Origin: Stentor roeselii
Taxonomy: Eukaryota > Ciliophora > Heterotrichea > Heterotrichida > Stentoridae
Reading direction: 5' to 3'
Assembly: GCA_006503475.1 (NCBI GenBank)
Contig: RSEH01000024.1
Location: 124,001-188,000 of the forward strand
Length of the DNA: 64,000 nucleotides
Below, piece after piece: positions 6,211-36,721 of the stretch. Numbering within the stretch: position 1 is the stretch's first letter; the number at the start of each line of letters is the position of its first letter. The notes under the pieces are model-generated. The model searched no databases, was not told the origin of the DNA, and was given only the letters and a program-made list of their open reading frames with translations. A program made the translations under genes and the position numbers.

Positions 6211-9200
6211 CTAATGTTCATAACTCGCATAACACTCAATCGTCGCACAGTCCTCAGATGTCCACTTTTCCTTCGGCTTCCTTAAAATATCCCGAACAAC
6301 TTCCTTGACCTCTTCCGATCCTTTCACACTTTTTCCAGTTTTTATCGAACCTCCTTTGACAGCCCTTCTAGTCAAGCAAGCCGGGTAAAAACCTGAAATA
6401 CTTTCAATGACTGGAGGTTCAGGGTTCTGCCCAGTCCACTTCGAAGCGATTAGGCCTAAATTATTGGAAACTTTGCTGAAACCTGCGGAATTACCTTGCA
6501 AAAACCTCAGGTCTACTAGAGTCACCAGCATTACTGAGAAAATTTTACTCCAGATTGAATGTATCCTCACTACTGCGAATTCAGAAGGAATTTTCTGTAA
6601 TTCTTGAATGGTTGATGATAAATTTACTTCTTGGAATATGGATGATACTGATTCGAATCTTGAGGATTTACCTGAGAGTAAAACTTTACGGGAGTCGGTG
6701 AGGACTAGACTATGACGGAACCCGGCTGAGATCTGAATTGGTTTTCCTTGGGTTCTGAAGGTTACTAGTCTTGGATAGTACTCATTTGAAAGACTACCAT
6801 GCCCCAGCTGCCCTTCAGTCCCTTTACCCCAAGTGAAAACCTTTCCTAAAGTAGACTTCGCAATAACATGACTTTGTCCACATCCAACACTCGCAATTTT
6901 TTCCCCAAAGCTTTTCAAAGCAAGAACCATAGTAGGAAGACTCCTGGGTGCTAAATCCCCATGTCCAAGTTGCCCAAATGAATTTTCACTTCCCAAAGAA
7001 AAAACAATTCCAGCAGTAGTTAAAATGACAGCAAAATTAAACCCAGCAGTGACTTCACTGACCGAAAAATCATTTAAAACTTTCATGGGAAAGCTTCTTT
7101 TTTCCCCATTAAAAGTTTCAAAAGGCCAAATAAACAATTCCCCACTAGCAGAAACTGCCATATTCTGATGATTCACAGCAAGAACCTGCTTACAACTAGG
7201 AATTTCCAAAAGTGCTCCTTGTTTAATTTCACAGTAATTTCCTTGCCCAAGCTGCCCACGACTATTATCCCCAAAAGCAAAAACCATTCCATTAGAAGCC
7301 AAAGCCAACGAGTGGTCTTCCCCAGCAGAGACTTGCACGAACTTCAAGTCTTTTCCAGAATCAACAAGTCGAGGGCGGTTTCCATTCGACCCGCATTGAT
7401 TTTTATCATTCCAGCCCCAGGCAAAAAGCCTTCCTTTACTTGTTAAAGCCAAAGAGTGGCAAGTTCCAACAGCCAAGTCTAAAACATGCTCATCTTTTAC
7501 TGACAGGTCCTTTGCCAAGCAGTCCAGTAGTCTTCCCCAGAGGCCTTCATAAATAACAGACTCGTCTGAAAGGACCTCGATTTCAAAAGGTCGAAGACTG
7601 AAATAAATCTTTTCTACGTGAAAAGGTGTCACTTGCTTTGAATGGATCTGGGAATGACTTGATATTTGAGAAAGGTTTAAATTGTGAGAAATGTTTGAAT
7701 AGTGAGAAATGTTTGAATGATGAGAAATGTTCAGGTTTGGGTCTTTTGGGCTTGTTATTTGAGAAACTTCTGAAAAGTTTGATAAGGTTCTTAGGACTTT
7801 TTGACATGATGAAGAATCTTCAGATTTTTGATGCTTTGATTGTAAAAGTTCTAACTCGAGGACTGTTAAATTGTTTATCAATGCAGTTTCTTTTGATAGG
7901 AAGGAGTGTAAACGAGATCTTATTGCTTTTGAACGTGTCAGGTATGAGCGCACTGATGATTGAATTTTTATGAGTGAGGTTAAAGTTGAGAGGTAATGCT
8001 TTTGGCAGAGCTTTGAACGCATGAATGACTGGATTTTCACTGCGGCTGATGTGATTTTTAGAAGTTTTAAACGGATTAACTGCCCTTTAAACCACTTCTG
8101 GATGCGAGTCGCCATTCGGTTTTTCTTGTTTTTCTGAATCATTTGGGTGAACTGAGGAGTAATTTTACTTCTAATTTGGTAACCTCTGAAAGTTTTTTGA
8201 ATTCTCGTTGCAGAGACTTCTTTGGTTTCTCTTAAAATGCTGTCAAAAGCAGGTTTGCATGATTTTTTTTGGAAGATTTTGTTGATAAGTGTCTTTCCTT
8301 TTAATAGACGTCTTACACGATGACCTCTGAAGAGTTTTTGAGTCTTGATCGCGAGGTTGAAGCATTTTTCAAGGAAAAGATCTTCAATTTTTATTTTTAA
8401 GTACTGGTAAAAAATCTGTAGTCCGAATTCTTTCATAGCGATTTGTTCTCGGTATAGAATTGACCGATACCATCTTTGTATCGTCACTACTTTTTTTCGC
8501 AACATCTGAAAATTTTTAAGATTTTGATGACTTTTCCAGGCGTTTTGAATGACCCGAACACTTTTTTGCAGTTTTTTAAAGTTTTCGTACATGTTCTGAG
8601 CCCTGGTCCACCCTTGAATCCTCCTAACATGATTTTCAACTAAAGAAATCCTTTCCTTTTTCATGTTTTTCAGCACTTCTTGAGCATCAGCCTTCATAAA
8701 GACCTTATTTTTTCCTAAAAGTATTTCAGGACTATTTAATTTCCTGATAAACTCTTCTGAAAACTTAAAAAAATCATCAATTTTTTCAGTAAATCCAAAT
8801 CCTTTCAAAATTTTATAATTTTCAAAGAACTTTTCATGTGAAATCCTAACAGGAAATCCTTTTTTCCTAATCATGATACTATCCAAGAGTCCCAAGTACT
8901 GTATCTGATTCAAAACAACTCTTTGATCGAATTTCCAGGGACTTTTATCTTCATTAGGCTTGATACACCTGACAAACCAAGTCCTGGCATCAGAAATTTC
9001 CTGAAACAAGATTCCGACTTCTTTTCTAAACTTTTCTCCAATGAACTTTCCTTTGACTTCATCAGCGCGAAAGACGATTTTCAATGTTTTTTCTTCTGAC
9101 TTGCAAAGAAAAGTCTCGAATTCCGGGCGTACCTCGTCGATGTTCTTTGAAACGAAGCCGTCGATGGTGTAAGTGATTGAAGTCGCAGTGTGGTTTATTG

Positions 9201-27380: not shown

Positions 27381-28454
27381 ATGGACCCAAACCTTCATGT
27401 CACTTTGGAGTATAGGGACTCGGTCTTTAAACGGTTGAAATGTATTCCGGAGAACCAGTTTTGCTTTGACTGCAATTTGAAAAATCCAAGCTGGTGCTCA
27501 GTCATTCTTGGAATTTTCATTTGCTATAACTGCGCTACTCCTCATAGAAGCATGGGAACACATCTTTCCTTTGTTCGGTCAAGCGAACTTGATATGTGGA
27601 GCTTAAGACAGCTTGCGTACCTTGAACAGGCAGGTAACAAAGTAGTGAAAACGTTTTTCAGGAATCATGGAATTACGTCCACAGTCGATTACACATCCCA
27701 AATTGCTGAAAGATGGAGAAACGAGCTCTTAGACAAGGTGAATGAAATCTACCCAAAATTCTCGGACTCAAAAAAAGACGATCCAAAAAAGTCCTCTACA
27801 TCAGAACCAAAAGCCCCGGTTTCAGAAGAAACCAAAGCACAACCCGAGCCATCACCACCGACAGATCAATCAATTCCAAAGCCAGAAAAACTCGCTCCAA
27901 AGCCAATGCAGCCAGTGATACCCCGAAGCACATTCAAAGCTCCATCATCAGAAGCAAAGCACAAGTTCCGTAAATCAAAAGTCGAAGACTCGTCAACAGT
28001 GAGTTTCAAGCCAGTCTCTTTCAAAGCGCAAACAGAAGAAGAAGAGTTTTTCGACCCCCAGCCGTTGAAAGCGCCATCAAAAGCACTTGACCCGCCGCCA
28101 GCCCCGACAGCGGCGCCATCAGTGATTCAGCGAAAGCCTTTAGAAAAAAAAGCGATTTCTTCAGAAGACTACGAGGCAAGCTTTTCTGACCCTAGAGCTC
28201 AAAAAGCCAGAATAAATCAATTTTCAGGAGCGAATTCAATTTCAAGTGATATGTACTTTGGTAGAGAGAGTAATAAGGAAAGTGAGTTCAATGCTGATAA
28301 ACTTCGGGATGAAGCTGCGAGATTAGGCTCGATGGCTTTAGATAAGGCTTCTCAGGTATTGGATAAGTAGATCAAACAAACGCTTTCTGGAGCGCTTGGG
28401 AAGGTTTCGACTATGTGGAACAGGGAAGGTGATTTTTACAGTTCGGGCAAGTAG
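27381..28454 (+). CDS. ArfGAP2/3-type (Glo3) GTPase-activating protein, two exons, 352 aa
   Basis: The exons are 27381-28355 and 28371-28454. The N-terminal ArfGAP zinc finger (about residues 12-120) has CFDCNLKNPSW and later CYNCATPHRSMGTHLSFVRS, with the arginine finger in HRSMG. A Pro/Ser/Lys-rich middle follows. Near residue 285 is the Glo3 motif region ISSDMYFGRE, typical of ArfGAP2/3, which work with COPI coats at the Golgi. The short second exon adds an amphipathic C-terminus (IKQTLSGALGKV) of the kind that senses membranes. A COPI-associated membrane protein lies elsewhere in this window. It is convergent with the TEX47-like gene. Confidence 0.9.
28356..28370 (+). other. 15-nt spliceosomal intron
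   Basis: The intron is GTATTGGATAAGTAG in the ArfGAP gene (phase 0). It carries an in-frame TAG, and removal adds 27 residues including a second amphipathic Glo3-like segment. It has A at intron position 10. Confidence 0.8.
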
Positions 28455-28479: not shown

Positions 28480-29181
28480 CTAAAAAGTCAATTCTGGTGG
28501 GCATGGCCAGATGATTTCATTATCCAGCACAATATCAATCGGTGCCACAAATATATCAATGAAATCATTAAGACTAGGAAAGTCTTTTTTCAGCATCAAG
28601 CTCAAAGTTTCTTGTTTAGGTAGAAGTTTCTTGGTACTAGTGATAGCTTTAATCGCATTCGAGATTCCAGTCGTATTTTCCCCATCTCCTGAGTACTTCT
28701 CGCTAAGTTTTGTGCCGATTTCCATAATAATCGAATAAAGTCCCCAGCTGACTTCATCGACCTGAATCTCGTCAGGTTCATTTTCGCCGGTGCTATCAGG
28801 AGGAGTGACCGCAGAGCTCCAGAACTTAAAAATCCTTTTCGGGTTCTCCTCAGTAAAAACCGGAACACTCATTCCAGCGAAAGGAGGCGGCTCAAGTTTC
28901 ATGAGTTTTTCCTGCCATTTCACAACATTTATCAGAACTTCAGTCTCAGCTTCTAAAAGGTGAACAATATAGTTCCCAGTAGTTATCAGAAGACCTGTCA
29001 CGAAACTTTCTGATTCTTTAAGCCACTTTGAAAATTCATCTGCCAAGTCGATTTTAGGAGATCTTTCTACATTTATACGACCCACGTACATTAAACGGGA
29101 AACTGACTGTTTGGACTCACGGATTTCTTTTGAGACTTCGAACATGCTGCGACGATGAGGTTCTTCTGGGATTTCTTCCAT
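28480..29181 (-). CDS. TEX47/BLUF-like protein, 233 aa
   Basis: Residues about 28-95 show the beta-alpha-beta core of the BLUF fold as found in TEX47: a strand VSRLMYVGRI, a helix, then a hairpin VTGLLITTGNYIVHLLEAE followed by a helix. The flavin-binding residues of true blue-light BLUF sensors (the early Tyr and the Gln/Asn pair) are not clearly present, so photoreception is not claimed. TEX47-type proteins are linked to ciliated and flagellated cells. The C-terminal half is helical and unassigned. It is divergent from the WD40/channel gene with 109 bp between starts. Confidence 0.5.
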   Translation of the reverse strand: MEEIPEEPHRRSMFEVSKEIRESKQSVSRLMYVGRINVERSPKIDLADEFSKWLKESESFVTGLLITTGNYIVHLLEAETEVLINVVKWQEKLMKLEPPPFAGMSVPVFTEENPKRIFKFWSSAVTPPDSTGENEPDEIQVDEVSWGLYSIIMEIGTKLSEKYSGDGENTTGISNAIKAITSTKKLLPKQETLSLMLKKDFPSLNDFIDIFVAPIDIVLDNEIIWPCPPELTF

Positions 29182-29290: not shown

Positions 29291-32200
29291 ATGAGTCTCA
29301 AGCTTAATGGCCGGTATAAAATGACTGAAGAGCTCAAACAACCGCTAATCAAGCCGCTTGAATCTCACTTTTCAAATGATCATCATCTTGTACTGCCTGA
29401 GCACGAGCTTCATTCAGTTCTGCAGGACATTCATAAGACTGACAAGTCACTTCGAGGCCATACTAAAAAAGTCACGACTTTGGCAATCATTGGCAACGAT
29501 TTCATTGTTTCAGGCTCGAAAGATCAAAGGGTCAAGGTCTGGTCTTTGAAAGACCATCAAAAAGTCATCACTTTTAGAGGACATACGGGAAAAGTCAACT
29601 CTGTGGCAGTTGGAATGTTTTTAGTACATCATGGAAATCTGGAAAATGCTGAGGTTTTTAGTGCTTCTGATGATCGAACTGTTAAGAGATGGAAAGCGCA
29701 CTCGCCTTCAGAGGTTACAACTTTTATTGGACACTCTGAAGCTGTTTTGTGTCTTGATTATGATAGAGTCACTCAGAGACTTGCTTCGGCTGGAGCTGAC
29801 AAGCAGATCATAATTTGGGCCAGGGAACGTCCAGAAATTGACTACTTTTTATTCGAAGTCGACCCAGATCGAATAGATATCAAAGATCCTCGTGCTCATG
29901 AAAACAGCATAAATTGTTTGAAGTTTTTTGACTGTGGAAGAAAACTAGCAAGTGGTTCAGAAGACCTGAGAGTAAAAGTCTGGAACTTAGAACACAAAAG
30001 TCTCGCTTATTCAATAGAAGATCACGATGGTCCAGTCCTTTCAATCGACATCTTCAGGCACATCATCGCAGTGGGGTGCCGTTCAGGGAGCATCTTCATC
30101 TGGGACAATAAAAAGCCTATAAACCACTTCAACTCAAAAGAAACCAGCGAGATCCATTCATTAAAATTCAGCAAGTCCGGCAAGTTCCTTGTTTCAACAG
30201 ACAGTGGAAAGTTTTTAACGATCTGGAACTTAGAAAAGCACTCAAAAGAAGCAAGTCTTTTCGTCCATAATGAAAAAGTAAACGCTCTTCACATAAGTGA
30301 CGACCAGACCTTTGTAGCAACAGCTTCAAACGACAACTCAATCGGCATTTGGCAGCTGAAAAGAAGTCTTGAACTTGTCACCTTGAGTCATCACAGTGGA
30401 CCTGTCAATTGTTTGGCTATCAGCGACTGTCTCAGTTCTTTTGTCACCGGATCAGCTGATCGGACTTTAAGAATCAGTAAAAATGGAAGACATGATGACC
30501 GGCAAGTCTTGAAGACCTTTGAAGGAGAAGTCACTTGTGTCGCTGTTAAAAATCGACTCTGCATCGCTGGATGCGCAAAGGGAAGTATCAAGCTTTTACA
30601 CCTGGACAGTCAAAGCCATGGACCTGAAATTCAAGATGAAAGAGTCCCGAAAACTGTGGATATTGACAAATATGGAAAATTTGCTGTTGTTGGGTTTAAA
30701 GCTTTGAAAAGTGATAAACTTGGAGTCGTGAAACTTTTTACAACTGAAAATTTAGAAGAAATTTCAAGTTTTGAAGTAGAAAAGTCAGTGAATGCCGCGT
30801 TAATTTTTCATAATTCTGAGAATTCAGTTATTGTTCTTGCTGGGACCTCGAATGGTGAGGTGCACATGTGTGAAGCTAATAGCGTTACCAGGTCCAGTCG
30901 AGTACACGAGCTGAAAATAACAAGTCTTCAAGTGAACGAGTCAAAATCCCTTCTTTATTCAGGTTCCTGGGACCAGTCAATAAAAGTCCTTCGACTTTCC
31001 GACCTTTCTGTGAAATCCACTCTTTTAAACCACTCTAAAGTCAATTCTTTAAGTCTCAGTCTCAGCGGCAAACATCTGGCAGCAGGTCTTGAAGATGGAC
31101 GAGTAAAAGTCTGGAACACAAGCGAAGCCCGAGAAGACTTTTCTCTTCGTCTTCATCATTCTCCAGTGCTAAGCACGTCTTTCGCCTTTAAAGACCGATT
31201 TATCATCTCAGCTTCTTTCGACTCAAATGTGAAGATTTGGGCGACTCATGAGAAAACTAGTCAAAAAGTACTGAAAGGTCTTCATTCTCGAAGTGTTACT
31301 TGTGTGACGACGACTCCTGATGGGAAAACTGGGCTAAGTGCCTCAGAAGACGGGGAATTAAAGAGCTGGAGGATGAGTGATCATGAAGTCATCGCGCATT
31401 TCGCAATTCCTTGCAAAAATCGACATGGATCGGTGAGTGTCTTGACAATTGCAGTGAGTCCTGATGGGCAAAAGGTGATTGCGGGTTGCAGTGATAAGAG
31501 GATTTATGTTTTTTTGATGGAAAATTCTAGTGATAAACCTTTTAAAGTCCTCACTGGACATGTTGGAGAAGTCAATGTTTTAAAGGTTCTTGCTGATAAT
31601 GATACTGTTTTTTCATGCTCCTCTGATGGCACTCTTCGAAGATGGTCTATTGAAAAGGAAGACGAGTTGAATGTTATGCATGCTTCGGAAGAGTCAGTCA
31701 CTGCTTTAAGTATCAGTCATTCAAGTGTTTATCTTATTGTTGGAGACTCGATGGGCAGGGCGGTAATGATAAATTCTTTGCATTTTTCAGTTATTTTTAG
31801 TGAAAAGGTCTCGAATTCCATGATTTCAGCGGTTCTTATTACTAAAGATGACCAACTTGCTGTTATCAGTAGTAGAGATGGAAAAATTCATGTATGGAAT
31901 TTGAATAGTCATTCGTTGATGTACTCTATTCAGTTGCATAAGGAAGCTATCAACTCACTGGCGCTTAGTAGCTGCTGCAGATATGTTTTTACAGCATCGG
32001 AGGACAGGCTGATTAAGATCTGGAATATTCAAGAGCAATATGAAGAAATTCAAATCAAGGCGCATTCAGAAGCTGTCACTTGTATCTATATTAACCCTAT
32101 CAATGGACTTCTCTTGTCAGGCAGTCGTGACGAAAGCATAAGTCTTTGGATGACCAAAGACAAATTCTCAGAAAAACGACTAACAGGTCACGACCGTCAA

Positions 32201-35200
32201 GTTTTCGCATTGGCAGTAAGTTCCAATTACGTAGTTTCAGGAAGTGCCGATCAAAAAGTGATAATCTGGGACTATCGAACATTAAACACAGTGGCAATCT
32301 TAAACAACCTAAATGATCGCGTCTTAGCTCTCAGCTTTTCAGACGACTTTCAAATGATTTTCATCGGACTGGCCAACGGAGAGGTTTGGTCTTGCATATT
32401 ACCCAGTTATGACTTGACAATTATCGGAAAACATTCAGAAGCTGTCAGTTGTCTCATTGGCTATAAAGAAAGGAAAGTAATTTCAGGGTCAAATGACCAA
32501 AGTATCGTGATTTGGGACACAGAAAAGCAAGACTCACCAATTTTTACAATGAAAGAACATCGACAAAAAGTATCAGCTCTTGCTTATAACGGTCATAGTG
32601 AGTTACTCGCTTCAGGATCTGCTGATAAACAGATAATTCTTTGGAATCTCAATAAAATGAAAATAAAAGCAAGACTTGCAGGACATACTTTAGATATCCA
32701 GGCCTTAGCTTTTACCCAAGAAGGAGACTTTTTAGTTAGCGGGTCGAATGACAAGACTATAAAGATCTGGAATGTAAAAGAAAAACAACTGCAAAGTTTT
32801 TTTGACACCTGGCATCCTGTCATTTCTTTAATAATCACTCGGGACTCCCAACACGTTCTTTTCGCCCTGGCCAACCAAGAGCTTCAAGTGATTTCTTTGA
32901 AACAACACTCAGGAAGTATCGGCTTCAAGAAACTAAACTGCACCATCAAAGCACTTTGCCTTGGTGATGATGAGGAAAAGTTGTTCATTGCTAATGACTC
33001 TCCAAGTTTAATTGTGACTGACTTTAAAAATAAGCTTAGGTCTTTGGGAGTCCCTTCTCAGACTTATGATAAATTTTTAGAAGATGAGACTAAAAGTTTG
33101 GTACCTGCGAATTTGAATAATTTTCAGAGTTTTTTGAAGTTTTATAATATTTTTTACTGTCTCAAACATCAGGAGTACTCGAAACTTTCGCCTAGTTCTT
33201 ATGGAGTACAAGTTTCTAAGCATAATTTTACGTTTACTCACTTTTTGTGCTATTTTGGACAGGGAAAAATACTCAAGGCGTTAATTGGACCGGAGTTTGT
33301 GTTGAGACCTGATGGATTTGGACATTCTGCTTTTTATTATGCGATTAGGAGAAATGACCAGGAGTCGGTTGATGTTTTGCTTGAGTTTGTTGTTGGACTT
33401 AGTTTGGATTTCACCAGGTCGGCTTATTTTACTACTTTTTATGCGATTCAGAAGGATTATTTGATGATTATTCAGAATTCTAGTCAGTTTTTACCTGATT
33501 TTCTTAAAAGTTTGATGTACGAAAGAGAAAAAACCTATGCTCAACCCAAAGAGTCTTTACCCATCACAATTTTCAGTGAGTTTCAGCTGATTCCAAAGCA
33601 AACCTTCCCTTTAAAATTCATCCACCGTGATTCCACCTCAAAACCAAGTAAAACCTTCAAAAACCTAAAAGAAAAGCAATTAAAATTCCTAACAAGTCCC
33701 TTAAAAGTGCCTCATTTAAACGGTACAGCAGCAAGTTTATCACTATTACAAACAATATCAGACAGTGAAGACGATTCAATCTTCCAAACAAACTTCATAA
33801 AATACTACATAAACTACAAATTCCAGTCCCTACGATGGTTAGGTTATTTTTTGGCCTTGTTACTAATAACCAACCTGCTTCTAATCATTGCTATGATAAG
33901 TTCAGAAAGCTTTAACTTTTTAGTCTTTATTTCATTTTTAGTTGTCAACAGTCTGCTATTTTTATGGGAGCTGGTTCAGATAAGAGCTGGTAAAATCGAC
34001 TACTTCCGCGACCCGATGAATGCAATTGACGGTACTCGACTGGTGATCACAGGACTTTGGGTAGCTTTCGAAGTTTTCTTCGAACGAAATGTTTACCTCA
34101 CCTGGGCCATGGTCTTCGTTAACCTTTTCAGAGGGTTTTACGCTTTGAGGGTCTTTGAAGGCACTCGAGTTTTCTCGAAACTACTGGAAAAGTCTTTTAA
34201 AAATATTGCAAGTTTCTTGGTGGTCTTTGTTTTTTGCACTGTTTCACTTGGACTCATGGTTTTCATTACCTCGCCTTCAGACCCGAATCATCAGGAAAAA
34301 GTTGAAATTACTTTTAAGAACTTGTGGATGGATCCTTTCGAACTCATGCTCGGCATTCGTGAGTTTCATTCTGGAGAAGTTAGTTTGGCTTATTTCGGGT
34401 TTTTATTTGTAAGTGTTTTGAATTGGATGATTTTGATGAATATCTTGATTGCAATTTTAGCTGATACTTATGACGAGTTCTTGACGAACAGGGAGATTAT
34501 TGATACCAGGGAAAAAGTGCAGCTTTTAGTTGAAATTGAGCAGGTTTGTTATTCTTTTGCGAGGAAAAATGACTCATTGAACTACCTGCATATTTGTGAT
34601 GAAGTGTCTAGAAAAGGTCGCCAATGGAAAGGAAAACTTGCTTTCATTCAAAACCTTATTCAAAAGATTTCCATTACCGAGCCAGTGAAATCTTCAAGTG
34701 GCTTAAAAGGCTTAAGTCCAGACTTCACCTCACGTTTAGAAGCGATTGAAGAAAAAGTTCAAAGCTCTTCTATTAAAGTCCAAAATGAACTTGGAAAACT
34801 TTCTCGAGTGATGAAAACTTCAGCAGGTGTCGACGACAATCATTTCCGCGCAAGTATTGAAAGTTTCACTGATCGCCTTGCAGCTGCTGCGCGAGACTCC
34901 ATCTTGATCAGAGACGCTCCGGGTACTGAAGACTTGGATAATAAAATTGGTGAGATCAATGAAGTCATGAGTGAAAACTTCAGGCAAAGTACTATCGCCA
35001 TGAAATCTGTTAAGGATGACATGATGAAAATTTCTGATAATTTAAAGAAAAAAAATGAACATCTCAGGAAAGAAAATGAGTTTTTGTCTAAACAAATAGA
35101 AGACCAACTTGTGAAGAACCGGAAAAAAATCGATGATTCTATTAAAAGTAAAATTGAGGAAAAAATGACTACTTTGGAGATGAATATTCAAAATAAAATC

Positions 35201-35335
35201 AATAATACTATTGGAACTATTGATAAGAGAGTCGCGGAGACAGTAGAAGACTCTGAAGTTCATATGAAAGAATTTATCAATAAAGAACTCGCTGACCTGA
35301 AAGAGTTCATAAGGACAGAAATACAAAGTGAGTAA
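29291..35335 (+). CDS. WD40-repeat / ankyrin / TRP-like ion channel fusion, 2014 aa
   Basis: A single uninterrupted frame holds four modules. About 26-28 WD40-like repeats (residues about 55-1260) end in patterns such as SGSKDQRVKVW, SASDDRTVKRW and SGSNDKTIKIW, and are enough for four seven-bladed propellers. Ankyrin-like units follow (about 1310-1375: HFLCYFGQGKILKALI, SAFYYAIRRNDQESVDVLL). A six-helix ion-transport domain then spans about 1517-1730: S1-S4, S5 (SFLVVFVFCTVSLGLMVF), a pore-like FKNLWMDPFELMLGI and S6 (WMILMNILIAILADTYDEF, the TRP-like S6 end). A coiled coil covers about 1837-2014. It is probably a cation channel tethered by a large cytosolic propeller array. Confidence 0.88.
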   Translation: MSLKLNGRYKMTEELKQPLIKPLESHFSNDHHLVLPEHELHSVLQDIHKTDKSLRGHTKKVTTLAIIGNDFIVSGSKDQRVKVWSLKDHQKVITFRGHTGKVNSVAVGMFLVHHGNLENAEVFSASDDRTVKRWKAHSPSEVTTFIGHSEAVLCLDYDRVTQRLASAGADKQIIIWARERPEIDYFLFEVDPDRIDIKDPRAHENSINCLKFFDCGRKLASGSEDLRVKVWNLEHKSLAYSIEDHDGPVLSIDIFRHIIAVGCRSGSIFIWDNKKPINHFNSKETSEIHSLKFSKSGKFLVSTDSGKFLTIWNLEKHSKEASLFVHNEKVNALHISDDQTFVATASNDNSIGIWQLKRSLELVTLSHHSGPVNCLAISDCLSSFVTGSADRTLRISKNGRHDDRQVLKTFEGEVTCVAVKNRLCIAGCAKGSIKLLHLDSQSHGPEIQDERVPKTVDIDKYGKFAVVGFKALKSDKLGVVKLFTTENLEEISSFEVEKSVNAALIFHNSENSVIVLAGTSNGEVHMCEANSVTRSSRVHELKITSLQVNESKSLLYSGSWDQSIKVLRLSDLSVKSTLLNHSKVNSLSLSLSGKHLAAGLEDGRVKVWNTSEAREDFSLRLHHSPVLSTSFAFKDRFIISASFDSNVKIWATHEKTSQKVLKGLHSRSVTCVTTTPDGKTGLSASEDGELKSWRMSDHEVIAHFAIPCKNRHGSVSVLTIAVSPDGQKVIAGCSDKRIYVFLMENSSDKPFKVLTGHVGEVNVLKVLADNDTVFSCSSDGTLRRWSIEKEDELNVMHASEESVTALSISHSSVYLIVGDSMGRAVMINSLHFSVIFSEKVSNSMISAVLITKDDQLAVISSRDGKIHVWNLNSHSLMYSIQLHKEAINSLALSSCCRYVFTASEDRLIKIWNIQEQYEEIQIKAHSEAVTCIYINPINGLLLSGSRDESISLWMTKDKFSEKRLTGHDRQVFALAVSSNYVVSGSADQKVIIWDYRTLNTVAILNNLNDRVLALSFSDDFQMIFIGLANGEVWSCILPSYDLTIIGKHSEAVSCLIGYKERKVISGSNDQSIVIWDTEKQDSPIFTMKEHRQKVSALAYNGHSELLASGSADKQIILWNLNKMKIKARLAGHTLDIQALAFTQEGDFLVSGSNDKTIKIWNVKEKQLQSFFDTWHPVISLIITRDSQHVLFALANQELQVISLKQHSGSIGFKKLNCTIKALCLGDDEEKLFIANDSPSLIVTDFKNKLRSLGVPSQTYDKFLEDETKSLVPANLNNFQSFLKFYNIFYCLKHQEYSKLSPSSYGVQVSKHNFTFTHFLCYFGQGKILKALIGPEFVLRPDGFGHSAFYYAIRRNDQESVDVLLEFVVGLSLDFTRSAYFTTFYAIQKDYLMIIQNSSQFLPDFLKSLMYEREKTYAQPKESLPITIFSEFQLIPKQTFPLKFIHRDSTSKPSKTFKNLKEKQLKFLTSPLKVPHLNGTAASLSLLQTISDSEDDSIFQTNFIKYYINYKFQSLRWLGYFLALLLITNLLLIIAMISSESFNFLVFISFLVVNSLLFLWELVQIRAGKIDYFRDPMNAIDGTRLVITGLWVAFEVFFERNVYLTWAMVFVNLFRGFYALRVFEGTRVFSKLLEKSFKNIASFLVVFVFCTVSLGLMVFITSPSDPNHQEKVEITFKNLWMDPFELMLGIREFHSGEVSLAYFGFLFVSVLNWMILMNILIAILADTYDEFLTNREIIDTREKVQLLVEIEQVCYSFARKNDSLNYLHICDEVSRKGRQWKGKLAFIQNLIQKISITEPVKSSSGLKGLSPDFTSRLEAIEEKVQSSSIKVQNELGKLSRVMKTSAGVDDNHFRASIESFTDRLAAAARDSILIRDAPGTEDLDNKIGEINEVMSENFRQSTIAMKSVKDDMMKISDNLKKKNEHLRKENEFLSKQIEDQLVKNRKKIDDSIKSKIEEKMTTLEMNIQNKINNTIGTIDKRVAETVEDSEVHMKEFINKELADLKEFIRTEIQSE

Positions 35336-35369: not shown

Positions 35370-35951
35370 TTAAAGATTTACTCTCGTCCCTAACAACTTC
35401 AACAGCTCTGCCAACACCCTCGGATGAGCAGACCAACCCGGTGCAGTGACAAGAAATCCATCAACCATGACTTCATCTTCACGCATCTCAATATACTGTC
35501 CTCCTGCAAGAACTACTTCAGTGCTACAGCCTGTGTAAGTCGTGCATTTCTTTCCATTTAAAACTCCAGCAGCAGTTAAAACTTGCATTCCATGGCAAAT
35601 TACTGCAATAGGCTTCTGACTCACTGCGAAATGTCGAGTGATCTCTAAAACTCTTGCGTTTAAACGAATGTATTCAGGAGCTCGTCCTCCTGGAATTATC
35701 AAAGCGTCGTAGTCTTCACCCCGGATCTCGTCAAATGACGCGTTTAATGTGAAGTTGTGTCCTGGCCTCTCGATGTATGTTTGATCGCCTTCGGAATCGT
35801 GCACTGCTGTTCGGATCTTTTCACCTGACTTCTTGTTTGGACATACTGCGTGCACTGTGTGGCCAAGCATTTGAAGGGATTGGAACGGAACCATCAACTC
35901 GTAGTCTTCGACGTAGTCACCTGCTAGGATTAGGATTTTCTTTCCTGACAT
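35370..35951 (-). CDS. DJ-1/PfpI family protein, copy A, 193 aa
   Basis: This is a single DJ-1/PfpI glutamine-amidotransferase-like domain. It shows the conserved acidic residue in DYELMVPF, the [12 protein letters not shown] loop and the nucleophile elbow AVICHGMQ with its Cys. An AEY-type strand and a VTAPGW segment follow. The family covers deglycase-like, glyoxalase III and protease activities, and sequence alone does not decide between them. The length equals the PfpI/plant DJ-1D half-domain. A second copy lies 188 bp away, upstream in the reading direction. It is convergent with the WD40/channel gene. Confidence 0.93.
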   Translation of the reverse strand: MSGKKILILAGDYVEDYELMVPFQSLQMLGHTVHAVCPNKKSGEKIRTAVHDSEGDQTYIERPGHNFTLNASFDEIRGEDYDALIIPGGRAPEYIRLNARVLEITRHFAVSQKPIAVICHGMQVLTAAGVLNGKKCTTYTGCSTEVVLAGGQYIEMREDEVMVDGFLVTAPGWSAHPRVLAELLKLLGTRVNL

Positions 35952-36139: not shown

Positions 36140-36721
36140 TTAAAGTTCAACCCTAGTCCCCAACAACTTCAAAAACTCAGCCAACCACTTCGGATGAGCA
36201 GGCCAAGCCGGAGCAGTAACAAGTTCTCCATCAACAACCGCATCATCAACAGCAATCTCCAGATACTGTCCTCCAGCCAAAGTGACTTCAGTGCTGCATG
36301 CGGGATAAGCAGTGCATTTTTTTCGATTCAAAACTCCAGCCGCAGCCAACAACTGCAGTCCATGACAAATAGCAGCAATCGGTTTATGACTATCTGCGAA
36401 ATGTCGAGTAATCTCTAAAACTCTTGCATTTAAACGAATGTATTCAGGAGCTCGTCCTCCTGGAATGACAAGCGCGTCGTAGTCTTCACTCCGAATCTCG
36501 TCAAAAGTCGCGTTTAACGTGAAGTTGTGCCCTGGCTTCTCGGAATAGGTTTGATCGCCTTCGAAGTCGTGCACTGCTGTTCGGATCTTTTCACCTGACT
36601 TCTTGTTTGGACATACTGCGTGCACTGTGTGGCCGAGCATTTGAAGGGATTGGAAGGGAACCATTAACTCGTAGTCTTCGACGTAGTCACCTGCTAGGAT
36701 TAGGATTTTCTTTCCTGACAT
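36140..36721 (-). CDS. DJ-1/PfpI family protein, copy B, 193 aa
   Basis: This tandem paralogue of copy A has the same length. The first 52 residues of A and B are identical, while differences accumulate towards the C-terminus. The nucleophile elbow is intact (AAICHGLQ), as are the [10 protein letters not shown] loop and the acidic residue of DYELM. Substitutions cluster around the active-site neighbourhood (YPACS instead of [15 protein letters not shown] instead of REDEVMVDGF), so substrate range may differ. The 5' coding DNA of A and B is almost identical. See the finding on gene conversion. Confidence 0.93.

Follow-up and report, generated by a model that had tools for sequence, protein, structure and literature searches.

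A 64,000-nucleotide stretch of the genome of the ciliate Stentor roeselii (contig RSEH01000024.1 of assembly GCA_006503475.1, positions 124,001 to 188,000; here referred to as the window) carries on its forward strand an open reading frame, at window positions 29291-35335, that encodes 2014 amino acids (aa) with zero internal stops in the standard code. An earlier note, made from the letters alone, had proposed that this frame joins about 28 WD40-like repeats, ankyrin-like units, a six-helix channel and a coiled coil. Our analysis makes it almost certain that a single gene encodes these parts, in the order WD40 blades, short ankyrin collar, six-helix channel and coiled-coil tail. The frame is uninterrupted, and a search of residues 1240-1780 against 5.8 billion proteins yielded four homologues of 1993-2033 aa (P0002-P0005), each of which covered the whole query region and showed the same order of parts. 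All four lie outside this genome and are 51-61% identical to the query protein over the channel end; the next best locus within the genome is 33% identical.

Compared with P0002-P0005, respectively, the protein is 54, 54, 51 and 39% identical in the WD40 part, 64, 64, 59 and 57% at the junction of ankyrin repeats and linker, 63, 63, 60 and 52% in the membrane part and 69, 69, 65 and 49% in the final coil. With 57-64% identity, as opposed to 39-54% for the WD40 part, the junction ranks with the best conserved regions of the protein, and this, together with the order shared by the full-length homologues, argues against two separate transcripts. The methionine at residue 11 (position 29321) corresponds to the first residue of three of the four close homologues (P0002, P0004 and P0005), and therefore 29321 is a likelier start than 29291; the protein would then probably comprise 2004 aa.

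The array, the collar and the channel

In the N-terminal half, Pfam family PF00400 (WD40) matched with an E value of 2e-122, and a total of 48 families passed the threshold of 0.001; among the matches listed (25), all were WD40 or propeller models. Since a repeat profile built from a single seed was too weak, a rebuilt profile was used to count the repeats. It detected 21 repeats at an independent E value (iE) below 0.1 and 24 above 0 bits within residues 54-1163, as well as two further repeats of negative score that reached residue 1234. With a 132-residue gap filled, we arrived at 26 blades in this protein and at 27, 27, 28 and 29 in the four homologues. An AlphaFold model computed from five sequences (pLDDT 79.2) predicted residues 45-1240 to be all-beta, with 109 strands, or 27.25 times four, so that the figure of about 28 repeats given previously was a fair one. 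Four seven-bladed propellers would be the natural reading of such an array, and with its predicted propellers the protein belongs among the WD40 propeller proteins. A Foldseek search with the model returned, among the matches listed, a highly repetitive propeller and chains of the small-subunit (SSU) processome, Apaf-1, LRP2/megalin and axonemal doublets. A microtubule-specific origin of the propellers was considered and rejected, as the EML models match but so do many other propeller models.

Downstream of the array, the ankyrin-like units of the earlier note became clear in sequence searches at the level of the family. For this sequence alone, the Ank_2 score of 19.7 bits stayed below the Pfam cut-off of 27.3, whereas the family profile matched designed ankyrins (E value of 7e-27) and NOMPC (7e-26). 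The coiled coil predicted behind the channel was supported by a hydrophobic period of 3.74 in residues 1925-2014, which was equalled by none of 1000 shuffled sequences. The period of the tail (3.68-3.74) resembles that of coils with an 11- or 15-residue pattern more than that of heptads.

The hydrophobic part scored 30.1 bits against Ion_trans (cut-off of 25) and 24.2 bits against PKD_channel (cut-off of 22.4). Plain hydropathy revealed only four peaks above 1.6 in this protein and six in the homologue P0005. The AlphaFold model of the channel end (pLDDT 80) contained all six helices, the pore helix and the helix following S6. Foldseek matched this model exclusively to TRPV and TRPA1 chains among the matches listed (50 of 50), and in a second fold search 49 of the 50 matches listed bore TRP in their titles. 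Hence the hydrophobic region stood up as an ion-transport domain, one of the two points on which the earlier reading had been made to depend. The protein shares with the TRP superfamily a set of six transmembrane helices whose S5 and S6 flank a pore loop, a predicted fold with a cytoplasmic ankyrin-type collar and a predicted post-S6 helix, and very probably it is a TRP-class channel.

Table 1. Positions of the coding frame, its predicted parts and the adjacent genes within the window
Feature	Position	Strand	Basis or remark
Coding frame of the WD40-TRP-like channel, from the likelier start	29321..35335	+	longest frame from 29291; stop TAA at 35333-35335; start inferred from homologues
WD40 array, residues 54-1240, about 28 blades, predicted all-beta	29450..33010	+	four seven-bladed propellers inferred
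Ankyrin-type helix pairs, residues 1315-1371, two repeats; more helices to about 1407	33233..33403	+	family profile; model residues 76-132
Linker with beta strands before S1, residues 1372-1500	33404..33790	+	strands at model residues 176-235
Six-helix channel domain S1-S6 with pore helix, residues 1501-1732	33791..34486	+	Pfam, model, Foldseek
Pore helix and filter region, residues 1675-1692 (Gly1688, Glu1691)	34313..34366	+	model, alignment
Post-S6 (TRP-type) helix, residues 1734-1756	34490..34558	+	model helix 495-517
Predicted coiled-coil tail, residues 1925-2014	35063..35332	+	hydrophobic period
ArfGAP	27381..28370	+	
TEX47-like protein	28480..29181	-	
DJ-1/PfpI protein, first of two in tandem	35370..35951	-	
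DJ-1/PfpI protein, second of two in tandem	36140..36721	-	

No functional link between the channel and its neighbouring genes is evident.

Comparison with known channels

The usual classification of TRP channels follows their N-terminal parts. TRPN, with about 29 ankyrin repeats ahead of S1, offers a close parallel in layout. As in TRPN/NOMPC, a long repeat array precedes the pore and ankyrin repeats are followed by a linker and S1-S6, and the match of the family profile to the NOMPC ankyrins mentioned above is in line with this. In a single BLASTP comparison, the paralogue L019 also matched fish TRPN1 from the ankyrin repeats to approximately S5 (E value of 5e-4). However, both the model and the profile place only about two ankyrin repeats in our protein, which has WD40 propellers instead of a long ankyrin spring, and its membrane part alone matches TRPN1 at only 18.6 bits. 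TRPA1 aligns collinearly from its final ankyrin repeats up to and including the pore region (E value of 1e-17, ankyrin included), and Foldseek matched 7or0_A (8e-8); in contrast to TRPA1, WD40 repeats replace the ankyrin array, and identity in structure alignments is 12-15%.

The best fold matches (TRPV2, TRPV3 and TRPV5/6) and the best sequence match of the membrane-part profile all fell within TRPV. The beta strands of the linker and the strand after the post-S6 helix, as found in our channel-end model, are likewise a feature of TRPV. The protein differs in its WD40 array and in the absence of the TRP-helix tryptophan. It may also have fewer ankyrin repeats: TRPV channels have six, and our model shows two clear helix pairs plus weaker helices. 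Polycystins (TRPP) and mucolipins carry a large extracellular domain between S1 and S2, where our model leaves five residues, and the single channel domain sets the protein apart from the four-domain Cav and Nav channels. Propellers in tandem also occur in WDR3, EML, Apaf-1 and axonemal doublet proteins, none of which, to our knowledge, is joined to an ion channel.

The family in the genome and in databases

The fusion is not a single occurrence. In the genome assembly (44.39 Mb in 522 contigs), at least 79 loci, including this gene, matched residues 1254-1803 with an E value of 7e-24 or better, a lower bound because 79 of 213 candidates were scored; with L019 as the query, 76 loci matched. 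We examined 34 of the 79 loci, namely the locus in the window together with 21 from L009-L028, five from L029-L033 and seven from L035-L041, a choice that was not random but comprised the top-ranked loci, then some long or divergent ones and then some of middle rank. WD40 repeats lay upstream in the same frame at 33 of these 34; the weakest case, L023, had two repeats at iE<0.1, and the exception was L041 on contig C403, a 392-aa frame that encodes the channel only. Judged by coordinates, five more loci (C314, C146, C9:76498, C183 and C192) have a WD40 match in a frame of the same length. The fusions are somewhat fewer than the loci, since at least two of the 79 (C153 and C453:167662) fall into a WD40-less branch.

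Relatives of this WD40-less type (P0041 type; L034 on C139 in the same genome) share the channel core. P0041 has no WD40 match, and its S1-S2 and S3-S6 regions are separated by about 220 residues that contain several additional hydrophobic segments; the whole protein shows 13 hydropathy peaks. The branch comprises L034 (C139:4900-8500), which was the locus examined, matches on C517, C103, C437, C243, C344, C257, C464, C331, C153 and C453, and the proteins P0041 and P0042; P0041 has 1010 residues, and 15 matches extend over more than 600 of them.

Some members are longer still, such as L033 (C445), with 2391 aa, and L032 (C409:5000-14500), whose open frame of 3026 aa has about 350 residues ahead of the first WD40 match and long gaps inside the array. 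Two closely similar members, for which we counted 35 blades each (L022 and L024, C425:4668-6107 on the forward and 7488-8939 on the reverse strand) lie tail to tail on a contig of 14.8 kb. A search of the genome with PF00520 gave at least 162 Ion_trans matches (150 of 344 candidates scored), among them more than 12 Cav-like, multi-repeat frames 1400-1860 aa in length and others of 2600-2700 aa that match in part. Many of the top WD40 matches (150 of 4124 candidates scored) were found at low contig coordinates, within a few kb, on the reverse strand or at high coordinates on the forward strand, as if a separate WD40 family pointed outward at contig ends; most of these contigs were judged by coordinates alone (examples are C178:1266, C92:3400, C83:1118, C161:2713, C504:1041, C300:1310, C281:1930, C517:1980, C119:229473 and C127:224215).

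Protein databases were searched with about 8000 candidates scored per search, and candidates needed words shared with the query. The L019 protein retrieved 41 proteins, 38 of which scored at least 186 bits against the channel model. Of these 38, 33 have two or more WD40 repeats at iE<0.1, P0019 has one, and P0014, P0030, P0041 and P0042 have none. The remaining three are animal or unnamed ankyrin proteins: P0043 (fish TRPN1) and P0044 matched the channel model at 18 bits each and P0045 not at all. Nine proteins are named Stentor coeruleus, all listed as 'hypothetical' at NCBI, and eight of them (all but P0030) have WD40 repeats. These matches and the standard code, which is that of Stentor, by themselves point to a heterotrich near Stentor. 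Two JGI proteins, P0025 and P0047, agree almost or entirely in the channel part with L028 and with this gene, respectively, so that JGI metagenomes contain the organism itself or a close relative. Another protein search, aimed at fusions outside heterotrichs, returned only two proteins, P0046 with 892 aa and P0047 with 606 aa, the latter matching 78% of the query at full identity. We make no claim that the family is restricted to heterotrichs, because distant ciliate proteins may escape a search of this kind. The counts given for Oxytricha MIC-enriched proteins in PMC9958989 (WD40-like superfamily, 26; TRPV, 6; Ion transport domain, 5) may be a lead against a heterotrich-only family, provided that the same proteins are concerned.

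As far as we have seen, the family proteins are present in databases yet uncharacterised. The earlier note had known of no described channel with a WD40 array of this size ahead of the pore. We met no description of a WD40-TRP fusion among the matches listed in open-licence literature, covered by titles and the starts of abstracts (WD40 with channels, TRP channels or their expansions in ciliates or Stentor, Stentor mechanoreceptors and NOMPC), which is weak evidence of absence; with dozens of fusions in the family, the arrangement is no one-off.

The blade count covered 66 proteins and frames, some of them truncated, and gaps were filled on the basis of 43 residues per blade. Exactly 14 blades were found in 18, 21 in six, 28 in two and 35 in seven, altogether 33 of the 66, while the other 33, including this gene with its 26, hold other numbers; as the rows are related and the gap filling is rough, these counts serve as a description and not as a test. 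A recent duplication of whole propellers was rejected, because similarity at a spacing of seven repeats was not raised (pooled z of 0.03, standard error of 0.06; 20 proteins, every spacing), and the sequence bears no trace of copying by sevens. When 68 rows of the membrane part were placed on a quick tree, P0002-P0005 and P0046 formed a group with this gene at an SH-aLRT of 100. Five propeller classes required at least nine changes on the tree, compared with a mean of 19.8 in shuffles; 20 of the 68 rows were left unclassified in this count, and labels close to a multiple of seven were manually rounded to that multiple. P0043-P0045 had been dropped before the filter and blade counts, and P0047, P0019 and the partial P0041 and P0042 rows before the tree.

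Proposed working and alternative readings

We propose, with a probability of roughly 0.6, that the protein is a pore-forming subunit of a TRP-type cation channel and that a cytoplasmic propeller array is linked to the gate of this channel. As the TRP fold suggests, the pore would consist of four such subunits, with the tail coil as a possible helper, and each subunit would hang about four seven-bladed propellers into the cytoplasm from the short collar of ankyrin repeats and linker. The propellers might bind cortical structures or signalling partners, so that a pull, a push or the binding of a partner would be passed through the collar and the post-S6 helix to the S6 gate; the admitted cations could then trigger contraction or ciliary reversal. 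The earlier note had named cilia or the contractile cortex as possible places of action. Because the propellers stand where NOMPC has its ankyrin spring, we consider a tether or docking scaffold acting on the gate to be their probable role. In NOMPC, compression of the ankyrin array yields torque on the TRP domain, as stated in PMC9108448; that force is the stimulus here as well is a tentative suggestion and, on balance, unlikely.

Several observations weigh against this proposal. The predicted TM-score (pTM) of the propeller model is only 0.38 and the root-mean-square deviation (rmsd) of whole-length superpositions is high; therefore, the mutual arrangement of the propellers is not fixed by the model and the placement of the domains is uncertain. 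The propeller fold search singles out no particular partner, WD40 propellers being general docking surfaces. With the membrane-only profile, a P/Q-type calcium channel scored about equal to TRPV3, and TRPA1 was absent among the matches listed (60). The TRP-helix tryptophan of TRPV3 is not kept, a family aspartate being aligned there; this tryptophan, which TRPN also has, is not universal among TRP subfamilies. Finally, this protein has a glutamate at position +3 from the pore glycine, but its orthologues lack an acidic filter residue.

The most serious alternative, to which we grant somewhat less than even chances, is that the propellers form a signalling or assembly platform (for kinases, calmodulin-like proteins, G-protein parts or co-assembling paralogues) with no mechanical role and that a ligand, voltage or Ca2+ opens the channel. 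Dozens of paralogues with differing propeller numbers would suit many partners, and WD40 domains are generally described as protein-binding sites (PMC5068960). Whole-propeller numbers, however, would suit a structural tether equally well. We think it distinctly unlikely that the channel resides inside the cell, in the membrane of cortical alveoli, the contractile vacuole or endosomes, with the array as a sorting device, as in SCAP, which pairs WD40 repeats with membrane segments. Ciliate cortical alveoli are indeed Ca2+ stores and Beta-prop_SCAP is among the Pfam matches, but it is one of many propeller models and thus an unspecific match.

Improbable, too, is a non-conducting TRP relative that merely anchors a propeller scaffold in the membrane. 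The filter is poorly conserved, with an acidic residue at +1 of the pore glycine in 32 and at +3 in 39 of 72 aligned rows, but the pore glycine is kept in 66 and the S6 asparagine (Asn1717) in 70 of them; among the 72 rows are P0047, whose sequence in this region equals that of this protein, and two entries each for P0041 and P0042, of which two are partial and do not contain the filter. As the orthologues of this gene lack the acidic residue common in the family, the filter leaves selectivity unsettled, and a reading of cation selectivity from it was rejected as unsupported for this orthogroup. We consider it likely that the channel conducts cations. That the frame is an artefact, whether a merger of two genes or an open frame arisen by chance, is very improbable, because four homologues beyond this genome retain the entire order of parts, as do 33 of the 34 family loci examined. 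Heterotrich introns are 15 bases long, which preserves the reading frame, and could therefore hide inside an open frame, but the only 15-mer in the frame of the form GTA-N10-AG (at 33206; that form alone was scanned) falls within a segment that is coding in the homologues as well. A hidden 15-base intron was rejected, as the sole five-residue insertion private to this protein (residues 3-7) precedes the likelier start.

TRP channels with several WD40 propellers in front of the pore, encoded by dozens of genes in one cell, would be a new variant of TRP channel architecture, and because the fusion belongs to so large a family in the genome, the gene is a candidate for the sensory channels of giant ciliates. 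We know of no gene for the mechanoreceptor channel involved in Stentor habituation. Habituation itself has been ascribed to modification of mechanoreceptor channels (Wood 1988, as cited in reference 176 of PMC7935092), and RNA interference by feeding is reported for S. coeruleus in PMC10762896; as this species has homologues, a link between the family and habituation is directly testable. A speculative and rather unlikely extension of our proposal is that these proteins form a graded family of sensory channels with tether lengths set in whole propellers (two, three, four or five), including the Stentor mechanoreceptor channels whose modification underlies habituation. If so, the giant cell would cover different stimuli or depths of the cortex by means of propeller number, and the gene described here would represent the conserved four-propeller type.

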